A stretch of 38,199 bases of DNA. Origin: Ectocarpus siliculosus (lineage: Eukaryota; Sar; Phaeophyceae; Ectocarpales; Ectocarpaceae). Each line of letters opens with the position of its first letter. Position 1 is the first letter of the stretch. Positions 5,113 through 35,241 of this stretch are shown one piece after another. A program made the position numbers and the translations under genes. The DNA lies in assembly GCA_000310025.1 (NCBI GenBank), contig FN649743.1, positions 2,839,358 to 2,877,556 on the forward strand, read 5' to 3'. Below the pieces are notes generated by a model. It worked only from the letters and a program-made list of their open reading frames with translations, made no database searches and was not told where the DNA came from.

Positions 5113-5141
5113 CTGTCGTTCGTCCTTGCCGAGAGGGAGGG

Positions 5142-5146
5142 AGGCC
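5142..5146. repeat. Target-site duplication of element C, left copy
   Basis: AGGCC directly precedes the TGTTGG end of the left LTR and is repeated exactly after the right LTR at 10847-10851. Confidence 0.9.
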
Positions 5147-5632: not shown

Positions 5633-5694
5633 CGCTAGCGTAATAGATCAAGAAAGTGGCTGCTGTGTCTGCGCGAATAAGACGGCTGGAGGAG

Positions 5695-5778
5695 ATGGAC
5701 GAAGACCTCCGCGGGGACCAGGGACTAGTTCCTCTCCCCACGGGGAAGACAACGGGGGGGAAGGACGAGGTTCGTTGA
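5695..5778 (+). CDS. Short ORF upstream of and in phase with element C gag, 27 codons
   Basis: An ATG in a charged stretch (RRLEEMDEDLRGDQG) opens a frame that ends at UGA 5776-5778. The Gag ATG at 5788 follows nine bases later in the same frame. Either this is the true Gag N-terminus cut by a single stop, or it is a uORF controlling Gag translation. The in-phase layout favours the first, but nothing here decides it. Confidence 0.35.
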   Translation: MDEDLRGDQGLVPLPTGKTTGGKDEVR

Positions 5779-5787
5779 ACCTCCCCG

Positions 5788-7026
5788 ATGTGGACCAGCA
5801 GGGAGGAACGAAACGCAGCCGCGGATGGAGGGGAACAAGATCCAACTATCGCCCTTGTCGACCTCCTCCGCCGGGTTGCCAACTTCGCCTCCCAGACTCC
5901 GGGACATGACGTCCGCTCAGGCACGTCTAGTTCCCAGCCCATAGAGTTGAAGCTGAGAGAGAGAGTCGAAGTACCTGAGTGGAATGATGCTTTCTTGAAG
6001 GATCGAAGTGTGACTGTCGCGTTCCGAATTTTTACGAGTTGTTTCTCAGGGTGGATGGATGCAGAGGGTCTTGAAGAGATCATGAGAGGAGAAGAGATTC
6101 CTGTGGGTTCGTTGCACGTCGATAAGACTTGGTTGCGGCAGAGGTATGGCGATGAAAGTGTTCGAAAGGCCACGAGAGTCTGGATGTGCTTGATCACGAA
6201 AATCAACGTTCAACCTATACTAGACCAGATACTAGCTTCAGAGAGTCCACAAGCAGGGTGGAGAGTGTTTCAGTCCTACTACACTACAAACAGGACGCAT
6301 GAGAGAGAAATCCTGGACGGCACTTGGAACTGCCTTAGACAGAAGCATGGAGAGACTCTGGTCGACTACTGGGGAAGGGCGAATACTGTGTGGATGCAAT
6401 TACAGTCTTGTGGGGACAATCGAGAGGAGACGTTAATGTCGAGACACTTTGCACGTGGCTTGCTCCCAATGTACGACGATGTCAAAGACCGTATTCTGTT
6501 CCACCCCATGCTTTCGAGAGGTACTCTGGAAGAGACGCTGAGGCTGGTCGAGCACGAGCAGAGGATCAAACGGAGGTGTGGGGAGGGGATCGAGGACACG
6601 AGGCATGCGCCCGTCGCTGCCGGCGCAGGCCGGGACGGCGGCATGAGGAGAGCAGCTGCTGCGGGAGCGGATGGCGGACCATCTCATGAGCAGAGAGGTG
6701 CCTTCTTCTGCCAGGTTCACGGAGCGAACTCCTCCCACAACACCCCAGACTGCCATAAACTTCGCAAGGACTTCTTGTTCCACTACAACGACTTCATGGC
6801 GTTCATTCGCGAGAGGGACGGTATGCGGGGACCAGGTTTTCCTCAGGCCGGGGGGCAAGAATCGGGGCGCTTGTCGGGCGGATCATATCGAGAGCAGCTG
6901 CACCAACTCGACCAAGGGGCAAGCTGGGGTCGGGGCCGCCCGTTCTGTCCCCGTTCTGCAGGGCCCGACGCTGATGAGCAGCGAGTCTTCAACGAGGCCT
7001 TTAGCACCGCTACTCAGCCGGCGACT

Positions 7027-7085
<59 letters not shown>

Positions 7086-7926
7086 CATCGGCGCTAATCC
7101 AACGACCTCTGCCTCCTCGACGGCGACCCCCTCTCCACCTCCGGGCGACACTCCTCCAGCAAGTGGCGCCCCTCTTCGTCTCTTCCTCACACGTAGTGTG
7201 AATTCTCTAGGCGAGTCTGATTCTGTGTCTGGAAATGAGATTAGAGTTGTTAGTGATGGGGAGGTGTCTGGTGTTCCCGTTGCTGGTATGTCTGTGCCTG
7301 ATGTTCCTGTGGTTCCTGTGGTGAAGCCTGCTGTGACGTTTCAAGCCCCGGTATGGCACACTAGGATGTCAACACCCAAAGGTGGTGAGCAGTTGCAGGG
7401 AGACTCGGGGACGAGTGCGGGGATGTTTGATGCGAGGGAAGGTGTTGCGTCTAAGTGTGATGTGGCTGTGTTGGGTCGTGCCGAACAAATGGATGTTGAC
7501 GGTTTCCACCACCGCGCTGGCTACTTTCCCCAACCCGTTTTGAGTTTGACTGCCAAGCAACAAGGGAACACCCTCCCCAGGGAGTTGGGACCCGGGGCCA
7601 TCGCCGCTTCGCAGCCCGCTGCCACCGCTGCGCCTTGGCCTGTAGCCGCCGCCGCCGCCGCCGCCGCCGCACCACCGCCGCTGCCGCCAAGTCCCGGGGC
7701 ACCCGTGCCGCCTGCATCCTCGCCGGATGTCGCCGCGCTGCCGGACCCGCGGATGACTGCGACGAGGACTACCGCCGCTCCGCTGCCCGCCGCTGTTACT
7801 ACCGCCGCGCCGTTGCCGACACGCAAATCGGTGCCGACCTCCGAGGCCGATGGACCACATCCATCTCCGACGGCGCGTATTGAACGGCAAGCCGATGATT
7901 TGGCCTGGGATGATACGGACCGGTGA
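5788..7926 (+). CDS. gag: Gag polyprotein of element C (copia-like), 712 aa
   Basis: The N-terminal third carries a UBN2/Ty1-copia-type Gag region: conserved tryptophans, EREILDGTWNCLRQKHGET, then DYWGRANTVW and a LLPMYDDVKDR segment. Next is a zinc-finger-like motif C-x2-H-x5-H-x4-C (CQVHGANSSHNTPDC, codons 6709-6753), as in many copia Gags. The C-terminal half is low in complexity: 19 consecutive Gln codons, all CAG (7027-7083), Ser/Thr/Pro-rich sequence, and an Ala run of GCC codons near 7648-7670. Gag would assemble the particle that packages element RNA. No pol follows. A frame open past the stop to 8065 in a different phase (ending near LGVAPPSGALRLGS) may be a former continuation. Confidence 0.8.
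7027..7083 (+). repeat. (CAG)19 microsatellite encoding poly-Gln
   Basis: Nineteen uninterrupted CAG codons inside the element C gag. Pure trinucleotide runs are prone to length change. Confidence 0.95.
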
Positions 7927-10350
7927 GCTGGGGGAAGGCGAGCTGGGGGGCGACGAGATGGAGGGCGGTGGAGAACAGGATGTTTGGGAGGGGTGCATGT
8001 GGGAGATCAAGAACAACCTGCTGGGGGTCGCCCCTCCGAGCGGGGCACTCCGTTTGGGCTCGTGACGCGCCTTGCATCGCGCGACGACATCGAGTCTGAT
8101 CTAACAATGTGGGTTTCGTGTTTAGTTTAGTTTTTTTTGCCTTTCTTTCTGGCAGCGCGTTTTACTTTTGCACTGGTTTTTTCTTCTTTGTTGCTGTTTT
8201 TATGTACATCCAGAATCATGGGGGGGGGGATGTCATGTGTGACCATGATTCTAGAGGGCATGAACAGCAATCGATTTGTTTTTGTTTCCCCATATGAACA
8301 GCTACCTTTGCAGGGGGGCTGTCTCCATGTTTGTTAGTTGGCATTTTGATATTCGCGGAGTGTTCTTGCATGAACTCTGGAAATGTAAGGGGTATGTTTC
8401 GGGATGTGACAGCGGGGGGCTGTCTATATGTTTGTTTAGTTTTCTATCCGTTTCGTGGACAGCAACGGCGGCACCGATTTGCGTGTGCGCACTGTTTAGT
8501 TTGGTGCTCAACGACTATACTGGAGCAAGGAGTTGGCAGGAGTGATTGTTAGGGCCTATGTGCTTTCCGAATACTCGTTTCTGTCGTCCAAGAAATTGTA
8601 ACATTGTTTCGTTTGAGTTTTTGTGCCTACTCTTTGAAGCTGTTTTCCTCAGAATTGTCCGTCCCCATTCCGATGTTTTTCTGATGCAGCGCTGCCGCTT
8701 GTTTGGTATTTGTCTGAGAATGGTTCTGTGCTGTTGACGGTTTGAGATAATTTCCAGAGAAGGATGCATCGCCCAGCGGGGATGGAAACCACGGGCAACG
8801 GCGGTTTAGTGACAGATGTATGCGGGTTTGTGGATCCGGAATTGTTTTTTTGGTTGGTTTTTGGTTTTGGCTTGTTTCGGCGTTCTTTCGGATTTGATTT
8901 TGCGATTGAAATTGCACCTGCAAGAATATTTGACGGCATGAAGGCTGCGTTGAAACTGTTCAGAAAGGATCATGATGATGGAATAGGGTTATTGGTTTGA
9001 ATCCTTGCGGCCATGTCGCGAAGGCCGCTACTATGGTTGTGCTTGTTGTTTTTGTTTTTTCCTTCTGCGTGTGGCATTTTTTTTAGGTAGAAGGCTCTAT
9101 CTACATTGTTGTTGTCCCCTGTGTGTTTGGCGCGCCTCTCCATGTACCATCGGCCAGGGGTAACCCCTCTATTTATATAAAATGCTATGTCTTCGATGCT
9201 GTTGTCAATTGTCATTGGGGGGGGAATTGGTGTGTCATGACAATTAACTACAGCAATGTTACGAAGAATGGAATGTTTCGTCTGTTTTCGATGTTCGATT
9301 TGCAGAGTTCGGGATTTGACAATGCAGGTTGCGATTTTGGGGTTGTTTCCAGTACCCAAATGTCACAAGATGCGTTTATCAAGTAGAGGGTTGATCCCTT
9401 CACGTCTGGTGTTCGGAGAAGGGGGGCCGCAGCCAGACATGCATGGGTAGGGTATGCAGGAAGAAAATAAAAGGTATTGTAGGAAACTGAACGAACGGAG
9501 GTTTGTTTGTGTTTGAGGAAATATAATGAAAGAAGAAGGGGGGCCTATCTTTGTAGCACTCCATGACTCCAATGTACCTCGCGCTGTCAACCACGCAGGC
9601 AGGGCACGTAGCGATGTCACATGTTTCAAGGAGATTTTGTTTCTGAGGCAGGTTTGGTGTTGCTCCCATGTTGCTGAGGTATTCTGGTTTGTAATTTCAT
9701 CGTGTTTGTTGGACATTGAATTCAAGATTGGCCGATAGAAAATACTCGAAAGGGTTTTTTTGTATTAATGGTCTTCGTGTTGTTATGAGGATGAGGTATT
9801 ATTGTGGAGTCGAGCATTTTTGTGCAATCATGATTCTTGTGCTACGTGTGGATTTGAAGTCTCCTCGGAAAGTGATTTGTCCCGGACGGTGTTGGATGTG
9901 TTTGCATTTGTGTTCGTTTTCATTTGTTCCTGATATAACCCATTGCGGTTGTTTCCACGATTTGAGTTTTGGATGATTTGATATTGGGAATTTGAAATTC
10001 ATGAGCGACCGATGGAAATTGTTGGTGGTGTTCCTGGTTTAATGGTTTGGAACCGATGGGAATTGCAATCAAGTGTTTCTGGTTTAATGGTTTTTAGTGA
10101 ATGTTTTGATCTTTGGAGATTCTGGATACAATGGAGACCGATGGAGATTCTGGTAGTAGGTGTTTCTGGTTCGTTTGCGACAAATGGAAGTTCGAACTAG
10201 TCTCTCTGGTTTAATGGTTTATGGTTGTTGCAAGAGGATGGGAGGAGAAACGACTGTTGCACAATGACATTGATTTCTGGAGTTTTTGGGATGGGTTTCG
10301 TGTGATGCATAATATAAGCAAGTTCGGGTATAATCTTGACAATGCAGCGA
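7927..10350 (+). other. Long G/T-rich non-coding 3' region of element C
   Basis: About 2.4 kb with no supported ORF. The plus strand is rich in T and G and poor in C. It holds a 10-bp perfect inverted repeat (8212-8221 with 8243-8252) and three copies of CTGGTTTAATGGTTT (10034-10048, 10079-10093, 10206-10220). It has no recognisable pol remnant. Confidence 0.6.
8212..8252 (+). repeat. Inverted repeat with G-run loop in element C
   Basis: AGAATCATGG at 8212-8221 pairs perfectly with CCATGATTCT at 8243-8252. The left arm runs into a G tract (8220-8229), part of which lies in the loop. In RNA this forms a stable stem with a purine-rich loop. Confidence 0.6.
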
Positions 10351-10360
10351 GCAGGGGGGC
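10351..10360 (+). promoter_or_regulatory. Polypurine tract of element C
   Basis: GCAGGGGGGC lies directly against the right LTR start at 10361, the expected place and composition for the plus-strand DNA primer. Confidence 0.75.
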
Positions 10361-10846
10361 TGTTGGATGTACTCACAGCATTGACAGATTATTGCAACCG
10401 AGGAATGTTCCTAGAAGATGGAGCGGGGGATTTTGGGGGTTCCGCAGTTGTAATAAATTGGGGGAATGGTGGTACCATCTTTGCCACATATTATTGTTTT
10501 CTGGGTATGCGTGTCAGCAACGGTGTTGGCCACGTGCCCTTGATTTATTCATCTTCCTTTTTCCCGGCTATCACGCCCTGGGCTATCACGCCCGTGCCCA
10601 TACTACCTATCCACCATCTATCACGCTGCCAGGCTTTCACGCCTCTAGGCTATCACGCCATCACAACAGCTATCACAGCACCAGCGTCAACACATCAGAG
10701 CTATCACGCTCCGGAACATCATAGATGCGGCGGGTTACCACACCCGTGGGCAGTTTACTGTATTTTATCGTTGCCGGCAAACTCGCCGCGCGGTTCTTTT
10801 ATTTTTGCCGTCTACAACTGCGCCGGGCGCACCAAGCCACCCAACA
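10361..10846 (+). repeat. Element C 3' LTR (486 bp)
   Basis: Identical to 5147-5632 by eye, offset 5,214 bp, and followed by the target duplication AGGCC at 10847-10851. Confidence 0.93.
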
Positions 10847-16784: not shown

Positions 16785-17085
16785 TGTTAAGGAGTGTTGC
16801 TGTAGGGCCTAGATGGGGTACATCTTAGTCTAGTATAGGATGTGGGATGTCCGTGAGGTATACCTCTCAGGGGCCATACCACATCAGGACTCAGCTATCT
16901 GCGTGCCCCCTGGTTGCTAGGAGCTTGCTACTTGTAGGAGGATCCCCTCCTCAATCAGACCTTCCTCGCTCTCAATTCAAGCAACATCTCATTTCTACAC
17001 AATCGTGGAGACAAGGCATCAAGCGAGCGTACCTCTTTCTTTACCCTAGGACCCAGCTGCTTCCAACAGCTGGACCTCCTTTATA
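16785..17085 (+). repeat. Element A 5' LTR (301 bp)
   Basis: TGTTAAGG... to ...CTCCTTTATA. Compared with the 3' LTR it has a 17-bp insertion near 16921-16937, an imperfect duplication of the neighbouring TTGCTAGGAG. A stem CAGCTG-CTTCCAA-CAGCTG lies near its 3' end. Confidence 0.9.
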
Positions 17086-17087
17086 TC

Positions 17088-17100
17088 TGGCGTCGTCTGG
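17088..17100 (+). promoter_or_regulatory. Primer binding site of element A
   Basis: TGGCGTCGTCTGG begins two bases after the LTR. The TGG start complements a tRNA CCA end. Element B has the related TGGCGTTGTCGG at the same position, so both probably use the same or a similar tRNA, which I cannot name. Confidence 0.65.
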
Positions 17101-17539
17101 CAAGATGAGAAATTTGGAGAATACATTAGGCAATTTAACGCTCTGACGATGACGGTCATGGTGTCACACACTGCATTCAAGCCTTCCGCTGCTCAGGTTC
17201 AGATTGCTGTTCGGGACTCCATGCTCAAGCAGTTTCCGGTTTTGTCTGGACAATTGTACAAGGACGCGCAATTGACCATGGAGGCCCCTTTTCGGCGACA
17301 TGACACTTGTCTGGAGGACATGTGGGAGGCTTTGGACAAGCGTACGATAGCCCACACACCTGCAAAAGCGCATGACTTCGCACAGGCGCGCGGGACGATA
17401 TGTCTCCCGTAACAATTCATCTTCAGCACGTCCGCGCCGTAATGTTTCGGACAAGAAATCGGCGTCCAACACAGAGTCCTCTTCCATTTCTTCGGAGTCT
17501 TCGACTGCGAACAAGAGAGGTGGTAAGGGTAAAAACTGA
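17101..17539 (+). pseudogene. gag: Element A gag remnant (C-terminal capsid and tail)
   Basis: Reading starts abruptly after the PBS with DEKFGEYIRQFNALT, which aligns with the end of the element B capsid (DGTSFADYLVLF). It continues through MEAPFRRHDTCLEDMWEALD (B has SIADMWEAF). About 3.4 kb of upstream gag is gone. A frameshift near 17385-17395 moves the frame into a basic Ser/Arg/Lys tail (NKRGGKGKN), which ends at UGA 17537-17539. The zinc knuckle found in B is absent. The UGA is followed in phase by the next long ORF. Confidence 0.7.
17537..17539 (+). promoter_or_regulatory. Candidate readthrough stop between Gag and NADAR-Pol (A)
   Basis: AAC UGA CAU: a single UGA followed by C, with the next ORF open in the same phase and no in-frame ATG until 17777. 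Element B has the same arrangement (30974-30976). Confidence 0.45.
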
Positions 17540-18442
17540 CATGTCGATGACGGAGTTCAGCCGGTACTGCCGCCAACAGCATCCACCGTGCGCCCTTCTG
17601 GTGTATCTCAAGATGTTCGTGTTCAACCTACTTATTTAGGTACGCCCACTTCTGTATTTCAATCCCCCCAAGTTTCTCGGCCCGCCTCTTCGCCGCCCAC
17701 CTCATCGTCTGCTGGTTCTGGACGTGACAAATCCACTCCGGCAACAACTTTGTGGTGTGGGCGAAAGGGAGGTAAGATGGCGAGCGGTTCACCCCAGCTC
17801 ACCTCGTCGTCTCGGGTTTTAGAAGGAATAAGAAACTTGCCCTCTGCTATAAGAAAAGATTCCCCAGGTGTTGTCAACCAGGGATCTTCTAGAGTAGTAC
17901 GCGAGCCTTCTTCCACAGTCGTCCGGAATTCTACCGCCGATGCTCCTTCTACCAATTCTTCGCGACTTTCGTTGTCTCAGACCGTCCGTTGCCCCCGTGT
18001 GGTAGCACCTGATACACATAACTTTTCCTCTGCTGCCCACCAAGTGTTGACTGCACCGCCGCCATCGAGATCGGATGGTGGTGCCCACCAAATTGTGGAA
18101 GGTTCGGCTCCTTTGTCAAGGGGGAGTACTCAAGAGCACCCTGCACCAACTCGCCGAAGCCAGCATGATGCAGGAGTGACTACTCCTAACGAACAGGTCT
18201 CTAATAGCCGCCTTGCTAACATTGACCCAGCCGGAGTTGCCGCCCGTAGGCCGCCCTCTGGAACCAGAAGCGCTGCGCTCTCGCCCGCTTCTACCTCGCT
18301 TTCAGGTTCTCCATCTTCGCGAATGGGGACCCGTCCGCTTGGTCATTCTAACCCCGCTGTGCCTGGTGCTCTTTCGTTGCCGATTAGCCCCGCACAAGCA
18401 CAGTCGTTTGACGACACGCGTGAATATATTTCGGACAATGCT

Positions 18443-18912
18443 TTCCTTTTCTGGAAACCTCCTTCGATTTTGTTCGCAGTGGACTCCTTCGATTTTTGAC
18501 GTCCTGGGGGTGCGTTACTCATGTGGTGAGCAATTTATGATGTCGGAAAAGGCTAAGCTGTTTGGAGATACAGTCACGTACGACAAAATTATGGCCACTT
18601 CTGATCCAGCGCAACACAAGTCTTTAGGTCGTCAAGTACGTCCGTTCGATTATGCTGAATGGGAGCGTCGTCGTGAAGAGATTGTGCTTACGGGTTCGTA
18701 TGCCAAATTTGCTCAGAACGCTGCCATCAAACAACATTTGTTGGCTACAGGCATCCGTATACTTGCAGAAGCTAGCCCCTTTGATACTCTTTGGGGTATT
18801 GGCTTGCCTGCACACCATCCACATGCTGCAGACCCGTCCAAATGGTCGACGTCTGGCAAAAACTTGCTTGGATTAGCATTGATGAGAGTTCAGCTTTTAC
18901 TGCGAGATCGCC
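18443..18912 (+). other. NADAR domain in element A polyprotein
   Basis: About 155 residues match the YbiA/DUF1768 (NADAR) pattern: FW.PPS at the start, YSCGEQFMMSEKAKLF (family S.EH...A.KA), GRQVRPFDYAEWERRR, YAKFAQN (family KF.QN), LLATG, EASPFDTLWGIGL, and GKNLLGLALMRVQ (family G.N.LG..LM.VR). Family members cleave N-glycosidic bonds: bacterial YbiA acts on riboflavin-pathway intermediates, and NADAR partners of DarT toxins remove ADP-ribose from guanine. It lies between Gag and protease. One base too many near 18465-18475 splits it between two frames. Confidence 0.88.
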
Positions 18913-19253
18913 CGCTCGCGGGCGATGCTTCTGCCGATTCTGCTTTTGATTCTGCTTTTCCCGAGCCCCCTTCTTCTCAGCCCCCTTCAACGTCAAAACG
19001 TCGTATTCACGAAGTGGCTTCAGCGGGCAGGCCGCCGGCCCACGAGGACCAAGATACTGGTTCGGCTGGCGTGCGTTTAGACGCCCCTGGAGATCATGCT
19101 CCTGGAGTGCATCGTGTTGCACCCACCTTTGTTTGCGATGATAAACCTCCTCTTTTGGAGCATGGGCCTGATCTGGTAGGTGGAACTCTTTTAAAAGATT
19201 CCGATTCTTACACCACCCGAGTTTGGTTACATGGTGGGCCAACTGCTACTTCG

Positions 19254-19560
19254 CAACTTCCGCGGGTGGCTTTATTAGATTCTGGCTCTCCTGCGTCCTT
19301 CGTGACCGACTCTGTGGTTACTGCTATGATCGCTGCTGGTGCTTTGACACCTGGGAGTGTTCGCGTGTCGCCTTCTCGCCGTTGGGGTGGGTTTGGCGAT
19401 GGGCCTGCTCTCGAGACCACCAAATCTGTTCGCCTCACCGTCAACTTCCTAAATGGAGATCGTGCTACAGCTTCTTTGGCGGTTTGGGCTTGCATTGTTC
19501 CAGACAAGGCCATGGGACATGCTGTGCTTTTGGGGCGTGACAGTTGGATGCGTTTCAATT
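19254..19560 (+). other. Retropepsin-like protease domain (A)
   Basis: Begins RVALLDSGSPASFVTD with the Asp-Ser-Gly catalytic triplet and closes with AVLLGRDSWMRF, matching the hydrophobic-Gly-Arg/Asp motif of retroviral-type aspartic proteases. Confidence 0.75.
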
Positions 19561-20149
19561 CTAGGACATTTTCAACTCTCCCTCGCCCTGGGCCGGACGG
19601 TCGTGTCATGGGTGAGCTCACGCTTTCTACGCGTTTTTCGGCTGGAGCTTGTGTTTACGCTACACATGACGAGGCACCAGAGTCTTCGTTTCACCTCAAG
19701 TATGCCGGCAGTTCGGGCATTTCTTTGGGGCCGGAGCCTACACTCATTGAGGTCAACCTCGTCCGTTCTTCAGGTTTGCCTGCTTTGATAGGTGAGTATT
19801 TGGTGTCCTTTCGACCTGAAGTTGGTGCTCTTTCGTCTCCGGATGCGTTTGTGTCCAATGAACTTCAGCGCATCCCCCTCGCAGGTTGTGCTGAATTGGA
19901 GCCAGGCGCCATTCTTGGAGTTGCCGCGGCGCCTTTGTTGCGTGTGCCTGTGGAAACTTTGACCAAGTCTTTCACGTCCTCAACTTCGTCGACTTCGCCG
20001 TCTTCGAACTCGTCGGCTCCGTCGCCATCGACGACAGCCTCTCGGGTCAACACCGTTGATCCCAATCCAGAGGCACGACCTTCGAACCCCGCGCCAGCCC
20101 CCCCTCCGCCGAAGCCGCCCCCACAGGAACTGATGGATCGTCTGTCAGA

Positions 20150-20960
20150 GGCGCAACGCTCCAGCTTCTCGCGTTTGTGGGATAGATTGCCGTCGCACAT
20201 GCATGCCATCGCCTTTGATCTTCATGACCCTAATTGGTCGCCAGAGGCTATTGACCGATTAGCAGATGCATTGTGCGATTATTCTGATGTCTTTTCAACT
20301 TCGAAGACGGATTTTGGTGCTTGTGATGTTTTGCCCTTCAGCCTTTCTGTTCCTCCTGGGACGAAGCCTGTCGCTTCACGTCCCTACCGCATTAACCCAT
20401 TGATGCAGAAGAAGGTGGACGCAGTGTTGGATCAATATTTGGCGGCTGGGCTTATTCAGCATTCCACCTCTCCGTGGGCCTCTCCTTTAGTGGTCATCCC
20501 CAAGAAGGACGGCTCTGTTCGGATCACCGTCAACTACAAGCGCCTTAATGCACTGGTGGATTTAGATGGACAGCCTCTTCCGCGCGTGGACGGCATTTTG
20601 GACTCTTTGTACACAGGGAAGGTATTTTCCATCTTTGATCTCAACTCTGCTTTTCACCAGATTGTGTGCGACGAGGAGACCGTGCCTCTCACAGCCTTTT
20701 GCACGCCGACACAGCTCTTTGAGTGGCTGCGAATGCCGCAAGGAGCTAATGCGAGCCCTTCGTGGTTCGTGAAGGTCATCAACCGTGTGGTGCAAGGCTT
20801 GGACCGCGTTTTGGCGTATTTGGACGATGTCATTTGCTTTGACGAGGAACCTTTGGAGCATGTGCGTAACATGATGGAATTCTTCAAACGCCTACAACAG
20901 TACAACCTCAAGCTATCTCCAGGGAAGGCCCGTGTCGGAGCTACTCACGCCAATTTTCTG
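20150..20960 (+). other. Reverse transcriptase domain (A)
   Basis: Standard Ty3/gypsy blocks occur in order: SPWASPLVVIPKKDGSVRI, VNYKRLNALV, FDLNSAFHQI, FEWLRMPQGANASPSWF and the catalytic AYLDDV (20817-20828). No frameshift falls within the domain. Confidence 0.95.
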
Positions 20961-21257
20961 GGCCACACCATCTCCCCAGCCGGCGTTAGTCCGGATGGCG
21001 ACAAGGTTCGAGCGCTCACGAAGATGCCACCGCCGGCGAATGTCAAGCAACTTCGGAGTCTCCTAGGCGGTTTGAGCTACTGCAGGAAATTTCTGAAGAA
21101 CCTTGCCTCCAAGGTAAGACCGCTCAACGCCCTTCTCAAACAAGGCGTTCAGTTTAAGTACACCCCGAACATGGTCACGATGGTCAAATCGCTGCTTCAC
21201 GACCTCTCCCGCCCCCCGATTTTGGTTTTCCCTGATTGGGATGCGGTTGAAGACAAC

Positions 21258-21640
21258 AGTCGCCCTCTCCGTTTGTGCTCAGACGCCTGTATAGACGGGT
21301 TTGGCGCTTCTCTAGAGCAAGAACAGTTGGATGGCACTGTGCGGCCTATTGTGTACATCAGCCGCGCTACTCTTCCTGCCGAACGCAATTGGACCGTTTT
21401 GGATTTGGAGGCTGGTAGCATTGTCTGGGCTATTAAACGGCTTCGCGGATACCTTTGGTCGACAAAGTTTGTCATTTATTCTGATCACAAGGCTTTGGAG
21501 AGCATTGGCAAGGTCGGCGAACACGATGCTCGTGTGCAACGTTGGTTGGAGTATTTGTCCAACTTCACGTACACTTTGGAGTACAGGAAAGGTTCGGCGA
21601 ATGGCAACGCGGATTTTCTTTCGAGACTGCCGTTGCCAGC
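21258..21640 (+). other. RNase H domain (A)
   Basis: RLCSDACIDGFGASLEQE, WTVLDLEAGSIVWAIKR, FVIYSDHKALESI and GNADFLSRLP give the Asp, Glu, Asp and Asp positions of Ty3-type RNase H. Confidence 0.92.
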
Positions 21641-22755
21641 GAGAGAGGAGGACAAGACCGGGCCTGACAGCATCGACGGTATTGACCAGGCGGGCGTTTT
21701 TCTCATCCGGGCTTGTGGGTTCACCTATCATTCGTCTTCTACACCGGAGGTCGGTTTGGGTGGGCTCCGCCCTCCTTGTTCCGATGGTGTTTTTCCACCG
21801 TCTGTCTTGGAAGATTCGGACTATGGAGATTTTCGCAGACATGGACCACGCATGGACGAGCTTGCATCTTCGCCTCCTGCTGGAAACGATTGCAGGAGTT
21901 CTTCGGGAGTTTTCGCGGTTTCGCCCGCTTCTGGAGATACTGTGCCGGTTTCTCCGTCTCCTTTCGTACCCATCAAGTCGCATTGTGCACGCCGGCATGT
22001 CCACGTTTTGTCTTCGTTGCCGGAACAAGGACCCCTTGTTTCTTCGAGGACTAGGGCCAGGACTTCAGCGGCGTCAGGTTCTCCTGTCGCTGGCCCCAAA
22101 TATTTTAGACGACAGCCAAGGGCTACCGTAGTCCCTCGGGCTTCGTCGCCTGCTCGTCGCCCTAGCAGGTCTCGTCAGACGGCCAAGACAGCTGGGACTG
22201 GTCCCCGCTTGTCTCGGATTCCCGCGACGCCTACATCGGCGCCTTCGTCGACTGTTTCGGTACCGCCGGTGATTTCGCCGTCGTCTGCGACCCCATCTTC
22301 CCCGGTTTCGTCTTCTTTTAGGTCGTCACCTGGGACCACGGATTTTTCTGCATCTTCTTCGGCTGGTTCGTCAGGAGATTCTTTTGATCCAACCGCCGAG
22401 GATTCTTCCTATTTACAGGATTGTGTCCAGAGTTTCAACACAGTGGATTGGGCTCGGGAACAACAGCGAGAGAGTGAGTGCGTTGTAGCCATGCGTTTTC
22501 TCTCCCGAGGTTCTCCCTCTCCACCTCCATCGGATTTGTTGAATGTACCTGCCCCCCTTCGCTCCCCTAAACTAACGGATGTGTTGGCATTGGCTTCAAA
22601 AACACGATTGCATACAACCGACGCCAACATCACGCTTCTAGTTCATAAATCGGCGCCTCGGCCGGTTGGGCGTGCTGGGGGTAGGACCACTCGATTGCCG
22701 GATACTGGGGTACCCCGCATCTACGTGCCGATGTTGATGCGCCCATGGGTTCTCC

Positions 22756-24636
22756 GTGCTTGTCACACGACTGCTTCGTTTCATTTGGGAGTACACCGCA
22801 CTTTACGGCTGCTGGAGCGTTTTTATTGGTGGTCCGGCATGGATCGCTCTGTTCGCTGGTGGCTTCGGTCGTGTTTGGTGTGCCAAGGCTCGCAAGATTT
22901 CACGTCAGACCACTCGATGGCCCGAAATTGCCATGCCTTTGCCGCACGGTCCCGGCATTTTGGTAGGAGTCGATTTTTTCGGACCTTTGCCGGTGACTGC
23001 CAAGGGCAACTCCTACATTTTACTGTTCACGGATCGCTTCAGCCGCCGCGCGGATATGTTCGCGGTCACTGCGGCCGGATTCACGGCCAAAGGGACTGCT
23101 AACGTGTTTGTGAACCAGTACATGAAAAAGTGGGGATGTCCGACCACTTTGTTGTCGGACAATGGAATGCAGTTTTGGTCGAAACTCTCCATGGCTATCT
23201 ACGACGCGATGAAGATCAAGAAAGTCACCACGAGCGCCTACCACCCGCAAACAAATGGAGGTACAGAACGTGTTAATCACACCATGGCTCAGATGCTTGC
23301 TGTGGTTGTCAACGAGAGCCAAACGAATTGGGATGTGCATTTGCCACACGTCGAGTTCGCCTACAACAACTCTGTCAATCAAGCCACCGGGCTAGCGCCG
23401 AACGAGATACACATGGGACGAATTCCGCGCTTACCGCTTTCGGTGTTTGATCACCCTACGGTTGGTGGTCATCAGAGTTTAGATCGCGACCAATTGGAGT
23501 ACTGCAATTTGGCCGTGGACCGCCAACGTCGGGCGTACGATCTCGTTCGTGAGTACAACGCGCTGAAAGTTTCGCGTGTCGAGCGCCGCAACTCCTCTCT
23601 TCTTGATGCCATCAATAAGCTCCCTACGTTTATCGCTGGAGGCTGGGTTTGGGTGTACAACACAGCTGCCACCATTCGGCGAGGGGCCAAGAAGGACACG
23701 GATCAACAGGTGCTCAAGGTTAAGTTTTCGCTTCCTTGGACAGGGCCCTACAAAGTTCTGGCTGTGGGTCCCGCCTCTGCTGATGATACTCCAGATGGTC
23801 GGCCTTTGGGAAGCAAACTACTGTATCTGGATCTCCCTTCGGATATTTCTGGTCCGGACGCTCGCGCCCGTGTGTCGGTCTTACGATGCAAACTCTGCCG
23901 CAATCCGTATGACGTGAACGATTTGGCGCAGTCTCTGCCTGCTGATCTTTCGCGATATGTTTTGCATTCTTTTGGAGCCAAATGCCCGCCGTTCCATGTC
24001 ACCGTGGATGATGTGTCTCCGCCGGTTGGTTGTCTGGAAGTGGACTACATTTCGGGACATCAATTGGTTCGACATCGTAACGGCATTGTCGCGGTATTGT
24101 ACCAGACTCACTGGATTGGTCTCGCCACTCCATCCTGGGAACGGGAATCCGACTTGGATACGTTTCGTAGGCACATTCTTTTGTATTGGTCTAACGAGAT
24201 TTGCCAAAGCAAGCAGGGCAATCGCAATTATCGCCTGACTCGTACTCGCGCAGCACACCGCGAGCTTGCAAGGTCTCGAGGAGAACGGTACATGCCTCCA
24301 GGATTTAGTCTTGTGTCTCACGAGACTTGGCTTCGTCGCTTTAGTGCCTCTCTTCTGCCGGTAGGCGCGAGACTGTGGTACAAGGCACGCGATGGCCTGT
24401 GGTGGAATGGTCAAATTGGGACCCATCAGGACGGATCATATGTGGTTCGGCTTTTCGATGACCCAGGTCCCCGGATTCTTCCCCTGCCCGCGGTATTTTA
24501 CTCTACCGCTTTGGACGCGGCGTGTGGATCATGGTGTTTGGAGAAACATCGTTCGCGCCCCTTGGGCGACACCAATCTCAGGATTCCACCTCGGGCTGAC
24601 TCCATACCGTCAGCTGTTCCCAGGACCTCTTCTTAG
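22756..24636 (+). other. Integrase, chromodomain and Tudor-like C-terminus (A)
   Basis: The HHCC finger (about 22760-22885) is followed by the DD35E core: Asp at 22972, Asp at 23158, Glu at 23266. After a GGWVWVYN...WTGPYKVL segment comes a chromodomain-like stretch (24034-24192: EVDYISGHQ, AVLYQTHWIG, PSWERESDL), and then GARLWYKARDGLWWNGQIG with YVVRLFDDPGP (24361-24510), which resembles a Tudor/SH3-like barrel. Such readers can steer integration to marked chromatin. Confidence 0.8.
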
Positions 24637-25167: not shown

Positions 25168-25330
25168 GATAGGTCGTGCTTCTATGTTTTGCGTCCCTTT
25201 TGGTTACTCCTTTGACGCCAAACAAGCTTTGACCGTTCTTCACTCTATTTTGTCATCGCTCAGAGCGTGTAGTCGAAGCATAAGGGTTCGTCCCGTTTTA
25301 CCTAGGATGGTTTCGGTGTTGCTTGCCTCT

Positions 25331-25568
25331 GAACACTTGGAAAAAGAGTTCCCCAAGTTTCGTCGGTGTTATTTACCTTTGAACACTTGGAAAAAGAATT
25401 CCCCAAGTTTCGTCGGTGTCTTTTGGCCTCTGAACATTTGGAAAAAGAGTTCCCCAAGTTTCGTCGGTGTTATTTACCTTTGAACACTTGGAAAAAGAGT
25501 TCCCCAAGTTTCGTCGGTGTCTTTTGGCCTTTGAATACTTGGAAAACGAGTTCCCCAAGTTTCGTCGT
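25331..25568 (+). repeat. Five 50-51-bp tandem repeats with internal hairpins
   Basis: Units start at 25331, 25381, 25432, 25482 and 25533. Each begins GAACACTTGGAAAAAGAGTT or a near variant and carries ACTTGG...CCAAGT arms. Intervening sequence alternates between TTATTTACCTTT and CTTTTGGCCT types, so the higher-order unit is about 101 bp. Confidence 0.9.
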
Positions 25569-26244
25569 CCATTTTGCAACTCATGTTTGATCCTGTTAGC
25601 TTCTTCATTGACGAAGGCATGTCGACTGCGCTTCATGCTTTGAGACTCCATACCGTGGCGTCGCCTTCTCCTGTGGCCTTCGTCGACGCTCGTCATCACC
25701 CGCTTCATTAAACTTTTCTCCGTCATCGTCACCTTCAGGCGAAACTTTCATCACCGTCGAGATTCTGAGTTTCAGTGTTGTGTGTGTTGTATGGTGTATG
25801 TGTTTATGTTGTGTGTGTGTATGTGTTCAATATCGCCATTGTGCGCGGGATACAGGGCGATTCGTCGCTTTCCTTTTTCCGCCCTCGATTTTTTTTCATG
25901 TCCTGGAGCAATTATATCGCTTATTTGGGCTACGTTGGTTGAAAGGTTTTGTCGCAGGCCTAGCCGTGGTCGACCCTGTTGATCGTTCACTCTATCTCTC
26001 TAAGTAGTCATGCCTTCCTTACCAGCGAAATCAACTTTGTCACCCTGAAGTGGTGCACCTACCGTGGCTTCCCATTGCTCCTTTTGATTGGGTTTTGAAG
26101 TTAATATTTTGTTGTTGTTGGCGTCTTCTGGACTCTTTCGGGTAGTCACTCTCATTCCTCCAGCTGAGATACGCGCCCGTGCGCGTAAAAGAGTGGTGTG
26201 TGGCGTTTTGATATTGATTTTGTATTGTCATCTATGTTAATGGG

Positions 26245-26248: not shown

Positions 26249-26516
26249 TGTTATAGGATTCAGATGTGTAGACGGAACATAGAAGAGCTTGGTTCCTTCT
26301 AGAAGGCGCGGAGAGATGTAACTCTCCGCGGAAGGATGAAAAGCAGGGGACAGGATCTAGTAGCCCCTGCTTGTGCAGAGGATCATGTGCCCCTTGGTGT
26401 CATTCCTACCGATACCCAAGGCAACAGCTACTGCTGCTGCTGTTCTACAAGAGTAACAACAAGTGAGTTCTTCTTCACGGGTCAACCAGACTTCATCACG
26501 CGTGCATACCACTACA
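26249..26516 (+). repeat. Element B 5' LTR (268 bp)
   Basis: TG...CA ends. It contains three adjacent inverted repeats: CCTTCTAGAAGG (26295-26306), CGCGGAGAG with CTCTCCGCG (26307-26330), and AGCAGGGG with CCCCTGCT (26342-26371). Confidence 0.95.
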
Positions 26517-28511: not shown

Positions 28512-29048
28512 CTTCCGGGCTTGGCCACGGAAGTGGCCATCGCGTTGCCGGCGGTCGTCACCATACAGGAGACGGTGGATGTGGCTAACGCCTCCCGTCC
28601 GGATCTTCGGGATCTGGCCGGCCGTTTCCTCGCTGGGATGCGGACGGCCAACGCCCGTGCCACTGCTCCGGTGGTGTACCCTGGCTGCAGCGGTCCGCCT
28701 TTAGAGGCTTCCTATGTGTTCCAACAGCCGGCGCCGGGTCGTGTCAAGCAGGCGCAACCGAGTCGGGAGAGTGGTCCTGGTAGCTCGGGCGAGGAGTCGG
28801 GCTGGAGTTCGGCCGGAGCATCGCGTCGACCCCCGGCGCCTTCGTCCTCTTCGGTGGGTGGTAGCCGGGAGAGAAAGGTGGCCAAGCGTGGCGGGGATGG
28901 CGCTCGTGGCTCCAAGAACAAGAGCAAGACCGGGTCAGGCTCGGACACCAGCTTGCCCCGCAAGCCAGGTCGTCAAAGGCAAGTAGTTCCGTCCCTCGTG
29001 GACGCGACTTCGGATGCTCGTTTCTTTTTGCGTGATGATTTTGACCTT

Positions 29049-29190
29049 CCGGCTTCGGCCCCCCCCGTTTCTTCGGAAACTCGTGTTGCGTTTTCGAACA
29101 TGCCACCGGCTTCGGCCCCCCCCGTTTCTTCGGAAACTCGTGTTGCGTTTTCGAACATGCCACAGGCTTCGCCCCCCCCCGTTTCTTCGG
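29049..29190 (+). repeat. 57-bp coding tandem repeats in element B gag
   Basis: Two full units (29049-29105, 29106-29162) and a partial third, nearly identical, each with a C run followed by GTTTCTTCGGAAACT. Confidence 0.9.
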
Positions 29191-30973
29191 AAACTGTTGC
29201 ACCTCCTGTTTTTTCTACCGCTGATTATGCTGTAGGCTCAGGAATCGCACACCACCCCGGGTTCTCAAACCCCACCCCCCCTTCGACTTTTGTGCCCGTA
29301 CAAGGTGTTCATCATGTTGTACCGTCTTGGGATCGTGTTCCGCCTGCTGCTCCTTCGGTTGCAGCTGCTGCACCCCCTGTCGTTTGGGATGATAGTGTCT
29401 TGCCACTTTCTTCCAACATTGCACATGTTCGTCAAGCCACGGTAGATGCGGCTGCTTCGGCAGTTCGCAAGGCTCACGTAGTTTCTGTCCAACGGGCGTA
29501 CATCACTCTGAACTTGAAAAAAGTTGGAAATGTCGCTACCATGCCCTTCCCTTCAACTTTTTTGCCTGGGGACGGCTACCAACAGCTTATCCGCACAACA
29601 CGAACGGCCTTGTCCGACATATTGTTGCTGTGTGATGACCAAAGCGAAGGGTTGGACAGTACTGATTACGTGCCTGGATGGGAACGGCCTCTCGAAAAGA
29701 AACTTTCGGGTGCGATCACCCCTGACAAGCCCTCTACTGCCGATCTTGTCCTTTCCATCGCTGATTACTTTCAGCAGGTGAAGAGAAGCTTGGACGGCGG
29801 CGCCACCGGACCAGAAGCTTTTCAGTTGCTGTTGCGTCATCTTGCGGAGCAATTTGATGTCGGCGACCGTCAAGAGTCTTTTTTGAGGCTACAACAATTT
29901 GGAGTAGCAGATGGTACTTCTTTCGCGGATTACCTCGTGCTTTTCGCTTGTTGGTTTCGTCTGTGACTGGCTCTGAGCGTACTTTGGCCCCTAGTGTGTC
30001 CATGGTTCTAGAAATAGTGCGGCATTCGGTCTGCAAGCAATTTCCGAGTTTGTCTCCGATTTTGTACCCGGGTGCTCTGGCCACGGCCGTCACTCCCTTT
30101 GCGTCGATTGCGGATATGTGGGAGGCGTTCGCGCCTCTAGCGACAAATAAAACCCCGGCTATCGGCGGTTCATCTTATTTTTCGTTGTCTTCGACGCGTG
30201 GCTCCTCGCAGCCTCGGCGGTCCCAACACCGCGCCCCCGCGCCTTCGGGCCAGTGGGCACCAGGTTCCGCTCAGAACCCTGTAGTTTTGCCGGTACAATC
30301 GCACGACGCTCACCCTTTCACAGGCAACTATAATTCTTGGCCTGCTTCGCAAGCCGATTGGTCTGATGTATACGCTCTCACTTCTAGTTTTCGTAACACG
30401 GAGGATCCTTTTTTGTGGACTCCTTTGTTGACACAAGAGGCTCGCTCGCAAGCCTTCCGCGAAAACAGGAATCGCTGTCTGAACTGCTCGGGTGAAGACC
30501 ATTCCATGAAGCAATGCGTTGCACCGTTCACGAATTCTAGTGGGTTGTTGAACCCCGAGTTGGGTCTCCTCAATGACGATTCTGCTGCTTTTAGACGTTG
30601 GCAAGGCCGGTCTTTTCGACGAAAAAGTGCGGACAACCGCCAAAACAATCAGAGTAGACGCCACCAGCGCTCTTCCTCTTCGTCCTCTCAGCGTCGAAAC
30701 CACGCTGGGAATCGCCGTTCCGACGGTGGTAGTTCCCCTCACACTCATCAGACACAATCGCACAACAGCAGTGGGTATGCCCCAGGGAATTCCGCGGGTA
30801 ACTCTCACCCTCAGCAACACCCTTCGATCAACACCAACCACACTGGTGCTCTGTCCCTCTATCAACCACAAACACATGCACACACCGGTCCTTCGTCTGG
30901 CATCATGGTTTCGACCAATCACAATGCCCGTCAACCTGGAAACTTCCAAAATGGTGGCCGTTCTCGCAGCGGA

Positions 30974-30976
30974 TGA
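30974..30976 (+). promoter_or_regulatory. Candidate readthrough stop between Gag and NADAR-Pol (B)
   Basis: GGA UGA CUC: one UGA followed by C. The next ORF continues in the same phase for about 550 codons, with no in-frame ATG until 32135, so it could hardly start on its own. Confidence 0.55.
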
Positions 30977-32643
30977 CTCATCGGTGGTGGTTCGCCTACT
31001 TCCCCCGGACCGCCTTCAGCATCTTCGGGGACCTCGTCTCGTTCATCACAAGACGCTCGTGTGTCACGCTCTGTTGCCCCTAATACTTCGGTTTTATGCA
31101 ACAACGACAATACTTCGGTATCTGTCGCGCCGTCACACACTGTTGCCTCTAGCACTTCGGTCCTACGCAACGATAACCACACTTCGGTGAATGTTATCCC
31201 TTCTGGTACTTCGGTGCCGTACAATAACAACCATACTTCGGTACCCGTTGTTTTCCCCAGTGTCGATCAGGTCGGTATCCAGACAAATGCTCTCGTCCCA
31301 CCTTCTACATCGCACTTATCATCTGCCACCTCTGCGTCTCTGCCTCTTCGGACTGGCGCTCCGTCAGAAACTAACCAGTCTGGCGCGAGTACTGTCTTGA
31401 GGTGCGGGAACAGAACCGTAGGACCTTCGGGGCCATCGAGTACCGCTCGTTTGTCGGGCACCGCTCGTTCGCTCCCCCCGTCGTCTGCAGATCAGACCGG
31501 CCGTAGCCATGCGCTTTGGACGATTGAAGAGGAATCGCCTGAATTGGTTACCTCGGGTGAATCTTCGGATACGCTCAACTCGTCTGTGCTCGCTTCCGTT
31601 GAGGGTTCGCCCTCGATTGTTGCACCGGTAGCTAACTTGACTGGTTCCGACCAGCAAGTTACAGGGTCAAATTCGCCTGGCTACGAATCGCGTTGTTCTC
31701 TTGGTCCTGACCGCCGAACATCATCAGATTCCGCCACGAGATATTTCGACCATGGATCGTCTTCGGACGCTCCATCCCTTCCGACGCACGCTCGCCCCAC
31801 GGCGCCCGATACCAGGCCGCCGCTACCGACGTCGACAGTGTTGACACCACCGCTTCGGGAGGACCCTCCCGGAGTGACCTCCGAACAGCCGGCGGTCTCG
31901 CGTACCTTGTCACGGAGGAATGGCCAGGAGCACCACGCCCGGTTTGGTTCTTTAACCGACCCGGCCTTGGCGGCCGTTTCTAGCGAAAGCAACCTGTTGA
32001 ATGACACCTTACGAGGCGTTTCTTCAGGTTTAGAATTGGGGGGCACCCAGCGTGATGTCGCTGGCCCAACTATTGCGAACAATTCGGCTCCCGTCGATTC
32101 TTCGCCGGTCTCTGACATACCCGAGACCGTCCCCATGGACGTTCACGCCGTAAATTACAATGCGGGCGTTTCGGCTGCCTCCGCTTCGACTTCATCAGCT
32201 TCGGCTGCAACCTCAGCTTCGGCTGACCGCACTCCAGGTGTTTCGACTTCTGCAGTTCCCGCTGTCTTTGACCCATCTAACGAGTATTGTACTCCTGATA
32301 TGGTCTTCTTTTGGCAGCCCCCCTCTCCCTTTTCCCAATGGACCCCGTCGACTTTTGTGGTCGATGGAGTGGTATACTCGTGTGCTGAGCAGTTTTTCGC
32401 TGCGGAAAAAGCTCGTCTTTTCGAAGACCATTGCGCTTTACAAAACATCATGCGCGTGTCCGATCCTGCCTTACACAAGAAGTTTGGCCGCGGTGTCCGT
32501 GGTTTCGACCCATCTCTTTGGGAACACGAGCGCGAAAATATTGTGCTCACTGGCTCTTACGCAAAATTTAGTCAAAACTCCGAGTTGCGCGAGCATCTTC
32601 TCGGATCTGGCGACAAAATCCTTGCCGAAGCTATTGTTTGTGA
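30977..32643 (+). pseudogene. Element B linker and truncated NADAR domain
   Basis: About 440 residues of Ser/Thr/Pro-rich linker, with six ACTTCGGT phrases at 31085-31245, lead into NADAR at about 32300: VFFWQPPSPFSQWTPSTF, YSCAEQFFAAEKARLFED, LHKKFGRGVRGFD, GSYAKFSQNSELREHLL, GSGDKILAEA. These match element A and the YbiA/NADAR family and run in one frame, unlike A. The domain stops at about residue 110 because the deletion junction (about 32632-32640) removes the WGIG and G-N-LLG blocks. The frame then runs on out of phase to 32728. Confidence 0.85.
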
Positions 32644-34413
32644 TGCCAAGCCCGCAAGTCATCTCGTCAAACGCCTCGATGGCCTACTTTGTGCCTTCCG
32701 CTGCCTTCGGGCCCTGGTGTATCGGTGAGCGTCGATTATTTCGGTCCCCTTCCGTTGACACCGCGCGGAAACACATATATTCTGATTTTCACTGACCGTT
32801 TCAGCCGCCGTGCTGACATGTACGCGGTTACGGCTGCAGAATTCACCGCCGAAGGCACCGCTGACGTACTTGTCAATCGGTATATCCCTTTATGGGGTTG
32901 CCCTTTGAGTCTCTTGTCTGATAATGGCTCTCAGTTTTGTTCTAAACTGTCGCAGGCTGTATACGCCCGTCTGGCTATACGCAAAGTGGCCACCAGCTCT
33001 TACCATCCCAACGGCAATGGGGGTGTGGAGTGCGTAAATCACACTATGGCTCAGATGTTGGCTATGGTCGTCAATGAGAGGCAAGATGATTGGGACATTC
33101 ATCTGCCGCACGTTGAGTTTGCCTACAACAATTCGGTTAGTGTCGCTACTGGTTTCGCGCCCAACGAGGTGCATATGAACCGACTGCCACGCATGCCGAT
33201 GACGGTTTTTGAGCATCCATATGCTCGAGGCCACCAAAGCTTGCATCGCGATCAACTTGAGTATTGCGATCTTGCTGCTGATCGCCAACGTCGTTCTTAC
33301 GATTTAGTTCGCGAACAGCACAACCTGTCCGTTTCGAGGATTGGGCGGCGTAACTCCGCCCTATCGGATGCTTTGCGCAAGGTCCCCTCATACACCGTCG
33401 GTGGATGGGTTTGGGTGTACAACACCGAATCTACCATTCGCCAAGGTGTTCGTTCAGGCACGGATGACAAGGTCCTCAAGGCTAAGTTGTCTTTCCTGTG
33501 GACTGGTCCGTTCAAGATCTTGGCCGTGGGTCCGTGTCCTGACGCTCCCGACGGTTGTCCTCTGGCTTCCAAGTTACTGTATTTGGATCTTCCATCGGAT
33601 CTGCCGGGTCCGGACTCGAAAAACCGTGTGTCAGTTGCGCGTTGCAAGCCTTGCGCTAATCCGCATGACACTGAAGACTTGCCTCGGTTCCTGCCTGCCG
33701 GCCTTACACCGTATGTGCTAAACTCCTATGCGAATAAATCTCCTCCCTACCATGTTACGGAAGACGACGTGTCGACTCCGGTCGAACGTCTCGAGGTTGA
33801 CCGCATTAGTGGCCATCAGTCTGTTCGTGGCCGTGGTGGCACCATCGCTGTTTTATACCAAACGCATTGGAAAGGTCTTCTTCGTCCTTCTTGGGAACGT
33901 GAGATGGACCTCCAGCATTCCAAGCCCCACATTCTCCGGTACTGGACGGGTTCGCCTGATCAACATCGCCAAACGAATCGTCGCTATCGGGCGATGCGTA
34001 TTGGTGCGGCCACCCGCGAGATGGCGCGCGCTAAAGGGGAGCGAGCTTTGCCTTCGGGTTATTCGCTCGTCTCTCGTTCAACTTGGGACCGTCGCTTCGC
34101 CAATACTCCGCTACCTGCCGGCGCTTTCTTCTGGTACAAAGCTCGCGATGGATTCTGGTGGTTGGGCAAGATTACTGGACCGCCTCTACCGTCCGACTTC
34201 TACGTCGTCCGCTTCTTGGACGATCCTGGCCCTGTCAAGCTCGCCCTTCCTGATGTTCGCTACTCCGCCGCTGAAACCGCCGTCTCCGGATCCTGGTGCC
34301 TCCAAGTTCACAGCGGCAGTGCCCTTTTTAAGGGGATCCTTCGCAACGTCGACATGTCGCGTGGTGACCCCGGGACTGATTCGTCGCCTGATAACGTTGC
34401 GCGCCCCCATTAA
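32644..34413 (+). pseudogene. pol: Element B integrase core, chromodomain and Tudor-like end
   Basis: Opens after the deletion junction in the frame reading QARKSSRQTPRWP, equivalent to the sequence just after the zinc finger in A. The DD35E core is intact: Asp at 32734, Asp at 32920, Glu at 33028. GGWVWVYNTESTIRQG and WTGPFKILAVGP follow, then a chromodomain-like stretch (about 33787-33950: LEVDRISGHQ, VLYQTHWKGLLRPSWERE) and a Tudor-like stretch (about 34115-34270: FFWYKARDGFWWLGKI, YVVRFLDDPGP). Stop TAA 34411-34413. There is no in-frame ATG at the start; it was once part of the polyprotein. Confidence 0.88.
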
Positions 34414-34973: not shown

Positions 34974-35241
34974 TGTTATAGGATTCAGATGTGTAGACGG
35001 AACATAGAAGAGCTTGGTTCCTTCTAGAAGGCGCGGAGAGATGTAACTCTCCGCGGAAGGATAAAAAGCAGGGGACAGGATCTAGTAGCCCCTGCTTGTG
35101 CAGAGGATCATGTGCCCCTTGGTGTCATTCCTACCGATACCCAAGGCAACAGCTACTGCTGCTGCTGTTCTACAAGAGTAACAACAAGTGAGTTCTTCTT
35201 CACGGGTCAACCAGACTTCATCACGCGTGCATACCACTACA
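34974..35241 (+). repeat. Element B 3' LTR (268 bp)
   Basis: One mismatch to 26249-26516; followed by CTTT (35242-35245). Confidence 0.95.

Follow-up and report, generated by a model that had tools for sequence, protein, structure and literature searches.

A YbiA-type NADAR domain between Gag and protease in a Ty3/gypsy retrotransposon lineage of the brown alga Ectocarpus siliculosus

Why should a retrotransposon encode, between its Gag and its protease, a domain of a family known for removing ADP-ribose from nucleic acids? The question is raised by a 38,199-nt stretch of the Ectocarpus siliculosus genome (assembly GCA_000310025.1, contig FN649743.1, positions 2,839,358 to 2,877,556, forward strand; hereafter the window), in which two Ty3/gypsy elements, A and B, each encode a NADAR domain at this place in the polyprotein. 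We find that the active site of the domain is under purifying selection. The explanation that we favour, tentatively and with somewhat less than even confidence, is that NADAR has become fixed within the Pol of one brown-algal Ty3/gypsy lineage and that the Pol-resident enzyme, active and packaged, would strip ADP-ribose from guanosines of the element RNA or cDNA.

An earlier note, made from the letters of the window alone, had named the domain and its position. In a Pfam search, the element A copy matches the NADAR profile PF08719 with E 6.3e-41 (140.8 bits against a cut-off of 35.1, profile positions 12–162 of 163), by which a chance resemblance is rejected, and its location between Gag and protease is confirmed by the order of the frames and the protease motif LLDSGS. 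For element B, said to have the same domain in the same place, both place and identity hold (E 3.4e-27, 96.1 bits against the same cut-off), but the copy is truncated and covers profile positions 1–126 of 163. The AlphaFold2 model of the element A domain (predicted local distance difference test score, pLDDT, 91.5) has a predicted YbiA-like fold: with template-modelling (TM) values normalised by query length, its closest Foldseek match is the ADP-ribose-bound NADAR of Phytophthora nicotianae (8bau; E 2.6e-10, TM 0.85), and the comparison with E. coli YbiA (2b3w) that the note had proposed gives E 6.6e-06 and TM 0.73. Both structures have in common with the element NADAR the fold, the YbiA-type glutamate and the ADP-ribose pocket; they are single proteins, whereas the element NADAR is part of a retroelement polyprotein. 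Phytophthora D86, which contacts the adenine-proximal ribose, is not conserved in the elements and is variable in other NADARs too. According to the available text of PMC11543638, YbiA-type domains carry Glu at position E125, the BC4488 type Asp and those of phages His; glutamate occupies this position in all 42 aligned element copies, which assigns them to the YbiA type, and element B keeps the residue in its incomplete domain. Membership among the DarT1-associated NADAR antitoxins was considered and rejected, the residue being Glu rather than the catalytic Asp and the genome giving 0 DarT matches.

Is the domain maintained, or does it merely travel with the elements? A NADAR profile search of the 189-Mb assembly (492 contigs) gave 150 scored matches from 230 candidates, all above the cut-off; counted by hand, 129 have no internal stop and 21 have one. 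The copies analysed comprise 20 of the 21 top-scoring matches, fetched with 8.5 kb each (the one left out has a stop), 20 hand-picked domain-only copies of varied score and length, and elements A and B; these 42 copies were sorted by eye into seven families. NADAR lies upstream of reverse transcriptase (RT), on the same strand, in 20 of the 20 long loci, and integrase follows RT in 19; the fetched 8.5-kb stretch of the remaining locus (L019) gave no integrase match.

The pocket and catalytic residues given for PnpNADAR in the available text of PMC11543638 (E43, K50, K75, R79, W89, R93, E125, D130 and W133) were mapped onto the elements by alignment, with an inferred numbering offset of 2. They are invariant in the 42 copies of the seven families, between which NADAR identity is 52–78%, apart from the frameshifted L047 and L048 and the deleted element B; the stacking aromatic Y84 is replaced by Phe in 40 of 42. 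In 28 gypsy NADARs from the database, the active-site positions covered agree except for changes at R93 and at E43 (D in two of the 28).

The ratio of nonsynonymous to synonymous substitution (dN/dS, Nei-Gojobori) was calculated for 39 of the 42 copies, excluding L047, L048 and window element B. It is 0.20 for A versus family F3 (dS 0.85), the sole between-family pair with dS below 1; the remaining 20 pairs are saturated at synonymous sites, with synonymous proportions (pS) of 0.71–0.89 versus nonsynonymous proportions (pN) of 0.16–0.37. Within-family values are 0.17–0.58 (six families, 38 copies; F7 is one copy), as expected because some changes post-date insertion. Decayed copies are also present (L058 and L059), so the conservation is not just a matter of youth. 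The NADAR active site is under purifying selection, and the neutral drift of its residues that the note had named as a sign against its claim is not seen.

These data largely refute the idea that NADAR is a passenger, a captured non-functional gene fragment drifting with the element. The broken copies would suit it, with a stop in 21 of 150 matches and frame changes or a deletion in A and B; the dN/dS of 0.20 between A and F3, the invariant pocket and the retention of NADAR in close relatives described below stand against it, and we consider it barely credible. It is also very unlikely that the fold serves Gag-Pol only as a scaffold or for binding nucleic acid, with its chemistry irrelevant. 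The position between Gag and protease and the low-complexity-looking linkers that flank NADAR on either side fit such a role, yet a scaffold needs no catalytic or pocket residues, and these are invariant across the seven sampled families and present in most database relatives.

The distribution of the domain was followed among the best 120 of 257 matches of a protein search with the element A RT region, which divide into 56 close relatives (at least 43% identity) and 64 distant ones (below 42%). Room for NADAR, taken as at least 500 residues upstream of RT, exists in 26 of the close relatives listed, and 23 of these 26 have the domain, if in P0065 as a remnant and in P0090 and P0096 as the C-terminal part. 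The shorter close relatives, excluded from this count, have NADAR in 6 of 30 cases. None of the 64 distant relatives listed has it, and in 18 of them the stretch upstream of RT is 650 residues or longer. Trees of 12 elements built from RT and from NADAR agree in their main split; they place L009 and P0048 in a different order. The restriction to one RT clade and the agreement of the trees indicate that NADAR is a shared, inherited feature of that clade among the listed relatives, and the note's view of the domain as ancestral to the lineage is upheld.

The combination of NADAR with a Gypsy element is not new. A NADAR at the Pol N-terminus of one Ectocarpus Gypsy lineage has already been reported (PMC12477816, Genome Biol 2025), and the note's statement that no such retrotransposon family had been described falls with it; in our search for NADAR with transposons or polyproteins, this was the only paper recognised on the combination among the matches listed. 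In its available text, Gypsy-12_Ec32 and its relatives from Ectocarpus sp. 7 likewise have a Ty3/gypsy Pol with an N-terminal YbiA-family NADAR and a chromodomain-like tail. The architecture agrees with that of the window elements, which are likened to them here by description and not by consensus sequence. The same text, as far as available, makes no mention of active-site residues, dN/dS, a gag UGA-C or a cellular NADAR gene for the Gypsy-12_Ec32 lineage, and reports a Tudor domain for another lineage, Gypsy-10_Ec32, and not for that with NADAR. What is new here is the active-site and selection analysis, the retention in the RT clade, the UGA-C, the cellular gene and the Tudor-like tail.

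How are the two window elements built? Long terminal repeats (LTRs), a short target duplication and the order protease–RT–RNase H–integrase (the order taken from A) place them in Ty3/gypsy. Element A consists of the following.

16785..17085, plus strand: 5' LTR (LTR-pair alignment, ends by eye; repeats D4/D5)
17095..17539, plus strand: gag remnant (start by eye)
18468..18902, plus strand: NADAR, YbiA-type (PF08719; active-site residues present)
19150..19600, plus strand: aspartic protease region (bounds by eye; LLDSGS at about 19272 in frame 18180–23102)
20496..20972, plus strand: reverse transcriptase, RVT_1 (PF00078, E 5.4e-27)
21252..21566, plus strand: RNase H (PF17917, E 1.2e-27)
22725..23247, plus strand: integrase, zinc domain then catalytic core, in two frames (PF17921, PF00665)
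24040..24552, plus strand: integrase tail, chromodomain-like and then Tudor-like (about 24304–24552; alignment of 7 copies)
35517–35800: 3' LTR, pairing with 16785..17085 (LTR-pair alignment, ends by eye)

Frame 18180–23102 (1640 aa) encodes NADAR, the protease motif, RVT_1, RNase H and the integrase zinc domain. The first NADAR residues straddle a frame change (17540–18499 versus 18180–23102), and a second change at the integrase (18180–23102 versus 22738–24636) leaves the core and tail in the other frame; with these two frame changes the copy is not intact. The integrase zinc domain has E 3e-15 and the core E 1.3e-07, slightly below the cut-off. The protease region, without a Pfam match, was identified by its LLDSGS motif downstream of NADAR, and no zinc knuckle was found in the gag remnant. 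The LTR pair shows 8 mismatches and 17 gap columns over an aligned stretch that includes flanks, and three of the four bases of the target duplication match. A tandem array of a 50-bp unit lies at 25275–25576, in the 3' noncoding region of the element.

Element B is inserted in the 3' region of element A, with the target duplication CTTT.

26249..26516, plus strand: 5' LTR (LTR-pair alignment, ends by eye)
28512..30976, plus strand: gag region in two frames (zinc knuckle CLNCSGEDHSMKQC at about 30476)
32306..32644, plus strand: partial NADAR (PF08719; alignment)
32644..34413, plus strand: integrase with chromodomain-like and Tudor-like tail (PF00665, E 9.5e-10; tail alignment)
34974–35241: 3' LTR, pairing with 26249..26516 (LTR-pair alignment, ends by eye)

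A deletion has removed the last quarter of NADAR, the protease, RT and RNase H, joining NADAR to integrase; the Pfam search of the listed frames found no protease, RT or RNase H match, and this copy is not intact either. Complete NADARs are held by the family B copies L031–L033. Over 288 residues, the integrase shares 96.5% identity with a protein of Ectocarpus sp. CCAP 1310/34. The LTR pair differs by 4 mismatches in the aligned stretch, of which one is judged to lie inside the LTRs. The note had called the LTRs of the two elements unrelated. That stands in so far as the window repeat scan, made with no direct A–B LTR alignment, reported no A–B LTR repeat; A and B do have in common the tract preceding the 3' LTR, identical in both (CAGGGTGGGCTAG), and a similar primer-site-like start right after the 5' LTR (TGGCGTYGTC), both read by eye and both expected if A and B are one lineage.

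How might NADAR be expressed? UGA followed by C closes the gag frame in A (TGA at 17537–17539, in frame with 17540–18499), in B (TGA at 30974–30976, in frame with the NADAR frame) and in F1, F2 and F3, the five of the seven families in which the gag end was seen. These five families are related and the cases are not independent; the F7 locus was not fetched as far as the gag end. After the UGA-C, NADAR-pol continues in the same frame, or the next frame starts there if the copy has later stops or a frame change. Of 20 long loci, 11 have the UGA-C, and the other nine (five F1, two F2 and two F6) have a different nearest upstream stop or the place lies outside the stretch. One frame with a single stop between gag and pol is the layout of gag-pol readthrough, and the single conserved stop suggests stop bypass; if bypass is real, NADAR would be made only in Gag-Pol. 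The Candida element Tca2 has the same gag-UGA-pol layout, and bypass has been discussed there in what is available of its description.

What could the enzyme then do for the element? Going by the available texts, NADARs, among them E. coli YbiA, release ADP-ribose from RNA guanosine bases and not from phosphate ends (PMC11833690), and they act on guanosine in DNA as well (PMC11543638, PMC11125620). The suggestion in the note that the domain may strip host ADP-ribosylation from element cDNA or RNA fits this published activity. In the mechanism that we favour, a YbiA-type NADAR with an intact active site would be catalytically active and made in small amounts, only as Gag-Pol, by bypass of the gag UGA-C. 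It would enter the virus-like particle together with protease, RT and integrase, and there hydrolyse the N-glycosidic bond between ADP-ribose and guanosine on the RNA template or the cDNA, so that reverse transcription or integration would stay unblocked. Catalytic activity, stop bypass, packaging and substrate are inferred from the features described above. With an intact pocket in the same polyprotein as RT and integrase, the element's own nucleic acid would be the simplest substrate. The role would be one of nucleic-acid hygiene or counter-defence, comparable to that of the dUTPase in the Pol of some retroelements. Retroviral Pol dUTPases exist, and among our matches P0120 is a gypsy Pol with a dUTPase domain (precomputed Pfam domains), a precedent for an accessory enzyme in gypsy Pol. 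The dUTPase is likewise an embedded accessory nucleotide enzyme; the enzyme and its chemistry differ.

Viruses offer a second comparison. Positive-strand RNA virus polyproteins with NADAR are described in the available text of PMC9503650, which proposes that viral NADARs act against ADP-ribosylation by the host or against soluble ADP-ribose derivatives. Like the elements, these viruses have the domain inside a polyprotein and an RNA stage; polymerase and life cycle differ, and capture of NADAR by RNA viruses and by the elements was likely independent. The database also holds an RNA-virus-like polyprotein of 1609 aa (P0056) with matches to NADAR, a viral RNA-dependent RNA polymerase and a trypsin-like protease, the last below the cut-off.

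Several observations weigh against an active NADAR that cleans element nucleic acids. The 42-copy sample is biased to high-scoring, well-preserved copies, and of the 25 database gypsy NADARs with coverage of R93, 11 have C, H or S there. Relatives lacking the domain, by which the note had proposed to judge its claim, exist beside the 23 of 26 that have it: P0082, P0061 and P0088 have room for NADAR and lack it. The last two look like chimaeric gene models in which unlike sequence is fused to the middle of Pol, and P0082 may truly be without NADAR or may start downstream of it. A guanosine-modifying writer was not found in the genome for the families searched, PARP and DarT. DarT gave no match, and the PARP-like matches are four and short (best E 4.5e-6), two of them with an internal stop; PARPs, moreover, mostly modify proteins. 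According to the available descriptions, the UGA-flanking sequence of Tca2 alone is insufficient for readthrough in yeast, and E. coli YbiA gave cells no protection from DarT1 or YarT (PMC11125620), so that activity in vitro does not identify the natural substrate. Action of NADARs on riboflavin intermediates has also been reported, and small ADP-ribose derivatives have been proposed as substrates (PMC9503650, as far as available).

This last point leads to a different substrate. NADAR may act, in the cytoplasm or in the particle, on soluble molecules derived from NAD or ADP-ribose, such as immune signals or by-products of RNA processing. A small-molecule role has been proposed for phage NADARs in the same text, which also reports the N-glycosidase role on riboflavin intermediates, and an ADP-ribose-binding pocket is equally suited to small substrates. 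The tethering of NADAR to RT and integrase favours a nucleic-acid substrate, and we regard the soluble-substrate alternative as possible but rather unlikely.

The nucleic-acid explanation can be extended to a scenario that we hold to be unlikely: brown algae or their parasites would tag guanosines of retroelement RNA or cDNA with ADP-ribose, and this lineage would have acquired the NADAR gene of its host by way of the spliced mRNA; set downstream of a leaky gag stop codon, the domain would then supply an eraser to each particle. If true, a retrotransposon would encode its own countermeasure against a defence based on ADP-ribosylation of nucleic acids, and the same genome would retain the cellular gene. 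The physiological role of eukaryotic NADARs is described as unclear in the available text of PMC11125620. A high-copy lineage with a selected ADP-ribose pocket is strong circumstantial evidence that ADP-ribosylation, whether of nucleic acids or NAD-derived, matters to RNA-stage elements in brown algae.

Where did the domain come from? A cellular NADAR gene (L057) in the same genome, a relative of the element NADARs, offers a handle on its origin. It lies at about 2125.2–2127.1 kb of G000:C24 on the minus strand and has four exons with GT-AG introns, the splice sites being placed from protein matches; its 241-aa product has an N-terminal Cys/His motif (CKLPGCSRPCFIEPNGRVHDYCGVTH) followed by NADAR, and three Ectocarpus records match it (P0007, P0009 and P0032). 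Two candidates for a paralogue of this gene, at C4:2729733 and C24:668562, were rejected, both being decayed element copies. Directly before the NADAR core, L057 and the elements have in common the motif FWxPPSxFSQWT, which was defined after the elements had been inspected. The motif is found in 12 of P0001–P0058: six of these records have RT, two belong to the host-gene type and four (P0001, P0002, P0012 and P0043) are short and look element-like. It is absent in 42 as listed, some of which are truncated element sequences. Three histories can be envisaged: capture of the spliced mRNA of the host gene by the element, transfer of the domain from an element to the host, or descent of both from one source.

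A direct origin from a bacterium, as suggested in PMC12477816, not shared with the host gene and compatible with any of the functional explanations, we rate as a serious possibility at rather less than even confidence. Outside Ectocarpus, blastp matches are almost exclusively bacterial (PMC12477816, available text), and the best named match outside brown algae is a Phycisphaeraceae protein with 52% identity. The free tree intermixes P0006, P0014 and P0036, NADARs of other sources, leaving these, the elements and the host gene unseparated from one another. Against a separate bacterial origin stands the four-exon L057, which has FWxPPSxFSQWT as the elements do, and the tree test does not reject a clade that unites the elements with the host gene (p 0.318). 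Nor does it reject the elements alone as one clade (p 0.311); both constrained trees, in which P0002 and P0040 carried a provisional element label, lie 6–9 log units below the free tree. In another tree, the host gene, the elements and P0040 group at 89/56.

The integrase tail of both elements consists of a chromodomain-like and then a Tudor-like block, aligned in 7 copies (the element B part lies within 33703–34410); L010 was removed from this alignment for its stop. Pfam gave no match in the tail of element A, and the term chromodomain-like rests on inspection by eye and the description in the available text of PMC12477816. The AlphaFold2 model of the tail is weak overall (pLDDT 62.8) and confident only for the last block, which is predicted to be Tudor-like: the PHF1 and PHF19 Tudor domains are among its top Foldseek matches (E about 0.04–0.1, probability 0.97–1.00), while the first-ranked match is an integrase chain with probability 0.47.

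Upstream of the two elements, the window holds a further LTR-like pair at 5140–10653, with 300-nt repeats that are 99% identical. Between these repeats lies a gag-like frame of 715 aa (5779–7926), which matches PF03732 at E 0.0098, below the cut-off.
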